Part shown: in pieces, positions 8,217 through 10,132 of the stretch | How positions within the stretch are numbered: position 1 is the first letter of the stretch | Layout: every line of letters starts with the position of its first letter | Program-made: the position numbers and the translations under genes | Assembly (NCBI GenBank): GCA_021851875.1 | Contig: JAJZQI010000003.1 | Location: forward strand, 124,001-188,000 | DNA length: 64,000 bases | DNA from: Pseudomonadota bacterium | GTDB lineage: Bacteria > Pseudomonadota > Gammaproteobacteria > Burkholderiales > JAJZQI01 | Reading direction: 5' to 3' | Notes under the pieces: generated by a model | What the model was told of the DNA's origin: nothing | The model's database searches: none | Seen by the model: the letters and a program-made list of their open reading frames with translations, nothing else

Positions 8217-9779
8217 TCATTTCCTTATATTGGGGGCTTCAATTGTGCCGTCAACAGTCAAGACGGTATTGAAGCGGTTATCCGGCCGGGCAATATGGGC
8301 GACGATCTTGCCGTTCAGCTGGTTGCCTTGCAGTACGCTCAAGTCGCCGTTCGCCTCGATCAAGCCGCTGATCATTTTCATGCCGCTCAGGCGCGTGAGG
8401 GAGGGCGAGCTCTGGATCGAGCCGGTGAAATCCGAGAAGCGCGTTTCTCCGCCGCTGAAAAGCTTGTGGTCTTCCTGGATGGCGCGTGCCAGATCGATGT
8501 TGGAGAGCGTGCCGTTTTCTAAATGGAAGTTGCCCTGCCAGGCGATGTGCTGCCACAGCTGATCGGGAGATGGGGCGCTGGCGTCGTAATTCAGGTGCGC
8601 CGACAGGCTGCCGCGGAAAGCGGTTTGCGGCAGCAGGCTGGGTGTTGCGGTGGCGGGGTCGATGCCCTTCAGGTCGAGATCGCCACGCAGTCTCCAGGGC
8701 GCTTGCCAGGAAAGCTCGCTGCTGCCGCTAAAGTAGCCGCCGTACATGGAGCCGCTTACTTCGGTCAGGCGCAGCTGGTCAGCGGTGATTTCGCCCTTGG
8801 CCGAGAAAGTGTCGAGTTTGACTATTCCGGCAAAGGGCGGGGTCCAGTTGTTGCCGTCGAGTGTGATGCTCCAGCTGTGCCCCGTGTTGGCGAGGTTGGC
8901 GTTAAGCGTGTGATCGGTGCTGTGCAGCTGCCCGCGTGTGGCGTGGCCGTCGGCGGCAAAATCCAGTTGGCCGGAGATTGATGGCCAGGTGGCTTGACCG
9001 TATTGGATGCTGGTATTGTCAAAACTGATGTTTTTGACTGCCCGTTTGCCGGCATCTTGCCGGGCCAGGTAATTCAGCAGCTGTTGCAGTTGCTGGGTCG
9101 ATACGGTGACCTGGGCGAGATGAACCGTGTTGATCACCTTGCCGTTGTTCATGATGGAGCCCATGCTGGGGTAAAGATCGAACGTGCCGACCTGCATTTC
9201 ATGGTTAAGACCCACCGCCACTTTGTCCAATGCCAGATGGGGGCTTGGCAGAAAGCGCAGACGCACGCCGGTAATGCTGACGGGCTGGCCGAATAGCTCG
9301 GCCAGCTGCTTTTGCAGGGAGGGGGCCATGAAGTCCCATGGAGCGGCCAAGGCCCCGGCCAGCAGCAGCACCAGGGAGCCGAGGCCGCCGAGCATGATGT
9401 AGGGAATAAAACGGCTCAGCCAGTGCGGGCCACTTGAGCGTTTTTCCTGGCGTGAATTGTCGGATATGAAATCGGTCTTGCGGTTGTCGCGGGCAAACTG
9501 ATCGAAATAGGGGCTGTTCCCTGCCGGCGGTGCGGTTTTGGGCGTGTGTTGCTGCGCGGGCGAGTGGCGGGCGGCCGGAGCGGCGGAACCGCCGGGCTGT
9601 TTGGCGGCGACTTGTGCGTCCGGCTTGACAACTTCCGGGTTGGCCTGCAGTTTCGATTCGGCATGGGCCGGGGGGACGGGAATGTCGATTTGTTCGGTGG
9701 GTGTGCTGGACACGCTGTCACGCAAGATGGCATCCAGATCGTGTTCCAGTGAGTCAATCGAGTTTTCCGGCTTATCCAC
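8217..9779 (-). CDS. AsmA-like membrane-anchored protein
   Basis: The product is 520 residues. Residues 1-115 are low-complexity, Pro/Ala/Gln-rich and predicted cytoplasmic, followed by one membrane segment at about 125-148 (IMLGGLGSLVLLLAGALAAP) and a large beta-rich periplasmic part ending in the repeated hydrophobic pattern of AsmA/TamB-type proteins (SMYGGYFSGSSELSW, RLSGMKMISGLIEANGDLS). AsmA-like proteins are involved in phospholipid transport or outer-membrane homeostasis; the exact role here is inferred only from fold-level resemblance. The GTG start has AGAGAGG five bases upstream. The long disordered N-terminus ahead of the membrane anchor is unusual, because AsmA proteins normally begin with the anchor. 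Confidence 0.7.
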   Translation of the reverse strand: MDKPENSIDSLEHDLDAILRDSVSSTPTEQIDIPVPPAHAESKLQANPEVVKPDAQVAAKQPGGSAAPAARHSPAQQHTPKTAPPAGNSPYFDQFARDNRKTDFISDNSRQEKRSSGPHWLSRFIPYIMLGGLGSLVLLLAGALAAPWDFMAPSLQKQLAELFGQPVSITGVRLRFLPSPHLALDKVAVGLNHEMQVGTFDLYPSMGSIMNNGKVINTVHLAQVTVSTQQLQQLLNYLARQDAGKRAVKNISFDNTSIQYGQATWPSISGQLDFAADGHATRGQLHSTDHTLNANLANTGHSWSITLDGNNWTPPFAGIVKLDTFSAKGEITADQLRLTEVSGSMYGGYFSGSSELSWQAPWRLRGDLDLKGIDPATATPSLLPQTAFRGSLSAHLNYDASAPSPDQLWQHIAWQGNFHLENGTLSNIDLARAIQEDHKLFSGGETRFSDFTGSIQSSPSLTRLSGMKMISGLIEANGDLSVLQGNQLNGKIVAHIARPDNRFNTVLTVDGTIEAPNIRK

Positions 9780-9980
9780 GCAGGCCTCTCTTCCAGTCCT
9801 TATTATTCAATCAGATACGTAACCCTGGCGATGTGCGTCTGAATGTGTATATATATCTTGTCATTGTGGCAAAAAATATCGTCTTCGACAAATGATAAGC
9901 GGAAAACGGATTGAAACAGCTTTGCGCGCGGCTGTCACAGGTCAAAACGTCATGGCCGGAAAGCAAAAAGAAAATAAGCA

Positions 9981-10009
9981 TTGACTGTCTTATTAGTTTA
10001 TTAGATAAT
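9981..10009 (+). promoter_or_regulatory. Sigma-70 promoter for the CU-rich sRNA candidate
   Basis: TTGACT (9981-9986) and GATAAT (10004-10009) are separated by exactly 17 bases. No protein gene begins downstream on this strand; instead a strong terminator follows about 100 bases later. Predicted start of transcription is near 10016. Confidence 0.65.
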
Positions 10010-10015
10010 TCAAAT

Positions 10016-10118
10016 ACGCTTGTTTCTTCCCCTTCCCCGGGGTGGCAAGTGTTGTCTCCTCCATCCTCCTCCTTTGGTGGAATTTATAGCGCGGATTTGT
10101 GAATCCGCGCTTTTTTTT
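10016..10118 (+). ncRNA. Candidate CU-rich small RNA with anti-Shine-Dalgarno loops
   Basis: A transcript of about 100 nt would run from the promoter at 9981-10009 to the intrinsic terminator at 10089-10118. It has two C-rich stretches: CTTCCCCTTCCCC from 10026, which can fold with GGGG-TGG-CAAG at 10039-10049, and CTCCTCCATCCTCCTCC from 10056, partly exposed in a loop closed by TCCA (10060-10063) and TGGA (10078-10081). Such CCUCC loops are complementary to ribosome binding sites and recall the cuckoo-RNA class and RsaE-type regulators. The region lies between two minus-strand genes and has no convincing ORF. Function is inferred; expression is not shown. Confidence 0.55.
10089..10118 (+). 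terminator. Rho-independent terminator
   Basis: GCGCGGATT (10089-10097) pairs perfectly with AATCCGCGC (10102-10110) around a four-base loop, followed by eight T residues. The U-tract is only on the plus side, so it ends plus-strand transcription although both flanking genes are on the minus strand. This supports a separate plus-strand transcript. Confidence 0.9.
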
Positions 10119-10132
10119 GTCCATTTCTGCCT

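Follow-up and report, generated by a model that had tools for sequence, protein, structure and literature searches.

A Burkholderiales member of the RF02278 anti-Shine-Dalgarno small RNA family and candidate regulators of its promoter

Known anti-Shine-Dalgarno RNAs and the family of the locus

The Rfam family RF02278 includes the small RNAs (sRNAs) ncS27 of Burkholderia and S17 of Bordetella, and for these relatives data on expression, growth inhibition, Hfq and RNase E, and targets have been published. Growth is attenuated when ncS27 is overexpressed, and antisense to its CU-rich region has the opposite effect. S17 is Hfq-dependent, processed by RNase E, and represses at ribosome binding sites (RBSs); without S17, 92 genes are upregulated, 70 of them with matches in the RBS region, and one target was confirmed via compensatory mutation. 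S17 is not toxic in E. coli, so the "toxic" of the family name may not apply to the member described here. NmsR of Neisseria consists of a first stem-loop (SL1), an anti-Shine-Dalgarno (anti-SD) segment, SL2 with an anti-SD loop, and a terminator, and represses TCA-cycle mRNAs through its two anti-SD segments (PMC5362039). The cuckoo-type RNAs share an ultraconserved anti-SD motif, CCUCCUCCC (PMC10746234).

Analysis of the window, a 64,000-nucleotide stretch of contig JAJZQI010000003.1, revealed that positions 10053–10118 (+ strand) match the RF02278 model, "Betaproteobacteria toxic small RNA", over its whole length (positions 1–64 of 64) at 57.4 bits, above the cut-off of 50. The same genome carries a second copy (G000:C38:144102-144165, 51.8 bits); the siblings lie on separate contigs, C39 and C38, each well inside, and two copies are likewise present in the sister genome G001. 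RF02278 is present in 40 of 60 relatives, from about 50 families of the order. At least 120 stretches from named genome contigs contain the exact core; almost all of them are betaproteobacterial, as is the host of the window element. One contig with this betaproteobacterial core, L102, is labelled as a Klebsiella pneumoniae MAG and is probably mis-binned or mislabelled. The locus is very probably one of two sibling genes for a trans-acting sRNA of the RF02278 family. The initial annotation had proposed an orphan anti-SD sRNA gene, which the family match and the anti-SD segments bear out; its statement that no such RNA had been described from this group does not hold, because RF02278 covers the window RNA and relatives are widespread, with published examples in Burkholderia and Bordetella. 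The window element is an ordinary member of a catalogued RBS-blocking sRNA family, and its possible novelty lies in its control.

Comparison with the Burkholderia double-hairpin RNAs (ncS03, ncS05, ncS27, ncS62; bdhR1) revealed a shared UGUCUCCUCCA core, SL2 with a UCCUCC loop, a strong terminator, and several copies per genome, whereas the window RNA has an extra conserved SL1. Bordetella S17 has the same core and presumably the same RBS-blocking mode; it is made as a 190-nt precursor that is processed by RNase E, from a promoter with the −35 element TTGCAT, whereas a short primary transcript is predicted for the window RNA. NmsRA and NmsRB of Neisseria (RF02877) resemble the window RNA in forming a sibling pair with three stem-loops and two anti-SD segments, one between SL1 and SL2 and one in the SL2 loop; the siblings are tandem in Neisseria but unlinked in the genome of the window, and the window RNA scores 31.7 bits with the RF02877 model, below the cut-off of 52. 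NmsR-type cores (TTTCTCCTCTATTTCTCCTTTGTAGA) are found alongside RF02278-type copies in G028 and G033, the copy in G033 having the same TATTAG palindrome at its promoter as the window RNA, and a tandem NmsR-type pair is found in G045 (L227, G045:C1:1107730-1107994). SL1 and these intermediate cores suggest that RF02278 and NmsR may form one superfamily. The alphaproteobacterial cuckoo-type RNAs MmgR/suhB (RF00519) and ar14/NfeR1 (RF02344) also have CU-rich anti-SD loops, and the likeness to cuckoo RNAs noted initially appears to hold for mechanism. Homology to the cuckoo families is not supported by the covariance searches, in which the window RNA stayed below both cut-offs (ar14, 23.6 bits vs 58.8; suhB/MmgR, 25.7 bits vs 41), and the motif CCUCCUCCC is not in the window RNA, which has CCUCCUCCU instead.

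Promoter and candidate control of the family

The promoter of the window copy consists of a −35 element, TTGACT (9981–9986), and a −10 element, GATAAT (10004–10009), on the + strand with a 17-nt spacing and 10 of 12 matches in a consensus scan. Such a match by itself is at chance level (2 promoter-like sites per 2 kb vs 1.1 ± 0.9 expected). The promoter is supported by the conservation of the −35, the −10, and their spacing in G001 (TTGACA...GAAAAT), where the immediate upstream sequence is just 65% identical and the transcripts of this copy (copy A) are 89.6% identical. An AsmA-family gene (8217–9779) and a convergent SpoIIAA-like gene (PF11964, 10133–10480), both on the − strand, flank the sRNA, and the same order, AsmA/sRNA/SpoIIAA-like, is retained at copy A of G001. 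The intrinsic terminator (10088–10118, + strand) is formed by SL3, with a stem of 10 pairs at 10088–10111, and a U tract of 8 T. The promoter, the terminator, and the exclusively minus-strand neighbours had all been described initially and were confirmed; conservation of the promoter in relatives had been named as a check, and it is seen in the sister genome.

The Burkholderia authors described the regulation of RF02278-type RNAs as unknown, the Bordetella authors postulated an unnamed repression acting on the S17 promoter, and a supplementary figure of Sass et al. shows a common upstream motif. In the named contigs, the sequence CTTGCA(A/T)(T/C)GCACAAA spans the −35 element of most RF02278 promoters. 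The published Cupriavidus PhaR palindrome, YTKNTGCRNYGCANMAR, allowing up to 2 mismatches, occurs in 81 of the 110 regions upstream of the sRNA; the downstream controls gave 23 of 115 and shuffles 6.7 of 110. When the pattern was tightened after seeing the data to TTGCRNYGCANNA plus a −10, the hits were 75 upstream, 2 in the downstream controls, and 0.0 in shuffles. Of the 30 sRNA genomes, 19 have a PhaR gene and 11 do not; the 200 nt preceding the sRNA contain the S. meliloti PhaR core YGCRNYGCR in 18 of the former and 0 of the latter (Fisher p 2e-7, the genomes being related). On an rpoB tree covering 26 of the 30 genomes, PhaR presence shows at least 3 changes, and in all 3 independent contrasts the site goes along with it, a number too small for significance. 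In S. meliloti, PhaR (AniA) directly represses the analogous anti-SD sRNA MmgR, and the same regulator is predicted here for the RF02278 relatives. The PhaR sites and the different palindrome of the window's PhaR-less lineage (below), both computational, go beyond what was found published, and no link between PhaR and RF02278 was found in the literature searched.

In G023 (L215) and G021 (L230), a phasin gene is directly followed on its 3' side by an RF02278-like element that scores below the cut-off; the G023 element is flanked by phasin and phaB, and phaR is nearby. This hairpin with its terminator is a possible sRNA derived from the phasin 3'UTR.

Analysis of the window's own genome revealed neither PhaR (PF07879) nor PhaC, and YGCRNYGCR is missing from the 200 nt preceding each sRNA copy; PhaR control of the window copy is excluded by the absence of both gene and site. 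Whereas most Burkholderiales members of RF02278 have a PhaR-type palindrome, the window promoter has an operator-like palindrome, TATTAG-ATAATT-CAAATA (9999–10016, + strand), with 1 mismatch to TATTAG-N6-CTAATA. The promoter of the sibling has a perfect TATTAG-N6-CTAATA centred on the −10, the sole perfect copy in the genome. Since the window operator has one mismatch and lies beside a near-consensus −35, the two siblings may be regulated differently. With up to 2 mismatches, the palindrome is present in 9 of 11 PhaR-less genomes and in 1 of 19 with PhaR; in the lone PhaR-bearing case (L023) it lies 191 nt upstream and is probably there by chance. To our knowledge, no FNR-, Fur-, or LexA-type operator matches the palindrome.

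A candidate ligand of the palindrome is a BigR/SqrR-like ArsR orthologue encoded in the window's genome (G000:C42:17005-17319), whose best PDB hit is BigR (3pqj). BigR, SqrR, and YgaV are ArsR-type sulfane-sulfur sensors, and the candidate shares their reactive Cys pair, which is 66 residues apart here and in every BigR-like orthologue read. The gene is found with at least 79% identity in 10 of 10 palindrome genomes, and 7 of the 20 others have it with at least 64% (Fisher p 0.001, the genomes being related). With up to 1 mismatch, the palindrome adjoins the BigR-like gene in six genomes (G015, G029, G033, G036, G048, and G050), an adjacency very unlikely to arise by chance, given the few copies per genome. 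No palindrome with up to 3 mismatches adjoins the BigR-like gene of the window's genome, and in G001 the palindrome is not beside this gene either. Further 1-mismatch copies in the window's genome lie 33 nt before the start of a rhodanese gene (retained in G001) and between a DsrE-like and another gene. The SqrR site, ATTC-N8-GAAT, and the window-type site, ATTA-N8-TAAT, have the same arm spacing and different letters. Control of an sRNA by the BigR/SqrR/YgaV family was not found in the literature searched.

In L169 (G050) and L174 (G029), the palindrome lies 26–40 nt before the gene of an efflux-pump membrane-fusion protein, 3' of the BigR-like gene; the window's genome (L267) has the same gene order without the palindrome. 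A second, divergent ArsR paralogue in G046 (G046:C80:62805-63090) is preceded, at about 20 nt, by a TATTAG palindrome with 1 mismatch.

We tentatively propose that the ancestral switch of RF02278 would have been the PHB regulator PhaR, and that in this PhaR-less lineage the palindrome around the −10, putatively bound by a sulfane-sulfur-sensing repressor of the BigR/SqrR type, replaced the PhaR site; on the sequence comparisons above, we regard this as quite possible, at somewhat below an even chance. A different explanation, which we consider possible but rather doubtful, is that TATTAG-N6-CTAATA is no operator and represents a strongly conserved −10/discriminator context (TATTAGATAATNCTAATA), kept by selection for RNA polymerase, the other copies being due to chance. 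The centring of the palindrome on the −10 box would fit this explanation, as would a reversed-pattern control that is as frequent as the palindrome in AT-richer genomes, whereas the same control gave 0 hits in the window's genome and in G044. The conservation of both arms as an inverted repeat across many genera, the copies adjoining the BigR-like gene in six genomes, and the arm spacing shared with the SqrR site also argue against it and are consistent with the proposed operator.

RNA fold and predicted action on ribosome binding sites

RNA polymerase would start at about 10016 and stop at 10118, giving a predicted transcript of approximately 103 nt (10016–10118, + strand), the 5' end being placed from the promoter and SL1. 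The region 10015–10125 has a minimum free energy of −37.9 kcal/mol (z = −4.5), and 0 of 200 shuffles are as low. SL1 (10016–10052), a 5' stem-loop with a C-rich interior, lies outside the Rfam model, and 5/8 pairs covary. The RF02278 core (10053–10118) comprises the anti-SD sites, SL2, and the terminator. Anti-SD site 1, UGUCUCCUCC (10053–10062), is (nearly) invariant in alignment A1 and equivalent to Site 1 of Bordetella S17; anti-SD site 2, CCUCCUCCUUU (10065–10075), is located in the SL2 loop. Two C-rich segments had been pointed out initially, with conserved loops as a check. One, CTCCTCCATCCTCCTCC, is located at 10056–10072, and both segments conserved family-wide fall inside 10053–10077; the other, a run of TTCCCCTTCCCC within the 5'-most hairpin (about 10026–10038), is retained in close relatives only. 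In an alignment of 14 RNAs, 93.5% of the pair cells are standard pairs, and both-side changes occur in 8 of the 20 pairs of SL1–SL3, 5 of those 8 in SL1. None of 500 shuffles reaches any observed covariation measure, and sliding the partners abolishes the signal. SL1 is carried by the RF02278 members that share the promoter type of the window and differs between the two siblings.

The three-hairpin RNA is predicted to expose UGUCUCCUCC and the UCCUCCU loop, mimicking the 16S anti-SD; this mimicry rests on the general CCUCC anti-SD core, since the 16S 3' end is absent from the assembly of this genome. CU-rich unpaired segments complementary to RBSs, as in other RF02278 RNAs, are present in the window RNA. 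With Hfq, for which two genes are found in the 2.7 Mb genome (G000:C30:237802-237987, L159; G000:C22:23009-23203, L160), the exposed pairing segments, UCUCCUCC and the UCCUCCU loop, would base-pair with Shine-Dalgarno regions on many mRNAs and so prevent initiation, as shown for the relatives. Observed for the window RNA itself are its place in the family, a sibling copy, conservation, covariation in SL1, and a complementarity peak at start codons; expression, RBS repression, Hfq dependence, and growth inhibition would be carried over from published relatives. The broad translational repressor envisaged in the initial annotation fits the probable broad RBS-blocking role of this RNA.

Target counts were made with 624 ORFs on about 712 kb, a sampled quarter of the genome. 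In a duplex-energy target screen, shuffled sRNA segments gave energies equal to or lower than those of the real segment, so the screen singles out no specific targets, and exact-match positional counts were used in its place. The 7-mer complements of 10053–10080 number 45 at −20 to 0 of start codons (two 10-nt bins), compared with a handful per 10-nt bin elsewhere in genes; such a peak is expected of any anti-SD mimic and names no targets. Contiguous complements of at least 9 nt were found for 4 of the 624 ORFs, and the best ones lie upstream of CheZ-like, glutamine-synthetase-like, PhnD-like, and PpiC/SurA-like ORFs (identities judged by eye). This small number, together with the unlike SL1 of the siblings, would fit a dedicated narrow regulator, in which a few mRNAs are selected by SL1 or other variable parts, the anti-SD segments just helping to dock. 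We consider such a regulator unlikely, as the anti-SD segments are invariant across families while the SL1 stem varies, and the loss of S17 raises many genes with RBS matches. It is highly improbable that there is no sRNA at all and that the signals are a chance promoter (its consensus match alone being at chance level) plus an upstream transcript's terminator, or that the mechanical 63-aa TTG ORF at 9911–10102 is a short coding gene. No same-strand gene lies just upstream, and the covariance match to RF02278, the compensatory stems, and indels between members that ignore the reading frame all speak against this reading; the ORF is rejected as a gene.

Meaning for the switching of RF02278 RNAs

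The observation is sound, though the RNA family is a known one, and the present analysis adds a new, testable hypothesis on how it is switched. RF02278 RNAs are widespread, and what turns them on is unsolved in published work; the PhaR site over the −35 of most members, which is lacking in genomes without PhaR, opens this question to direct testing. It is conceivable, though doubtful as a whole, that a global anti-SD sRNA is wired to PhaR across betaproteobacteria, as in the PhaR–MmgR pair, and was re-wired to an ArsR-type sulfane-sulfur sensor after the loss of PHB storage. If so, a broad translational brake would be tied to carbon storage, and the lineage of the window would provide an unusual case in which the body of an sRNA was kept and its sensor replaced. 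Through the sibling pair of this genome, the sulfur/redox state would then set genome-wide translation.
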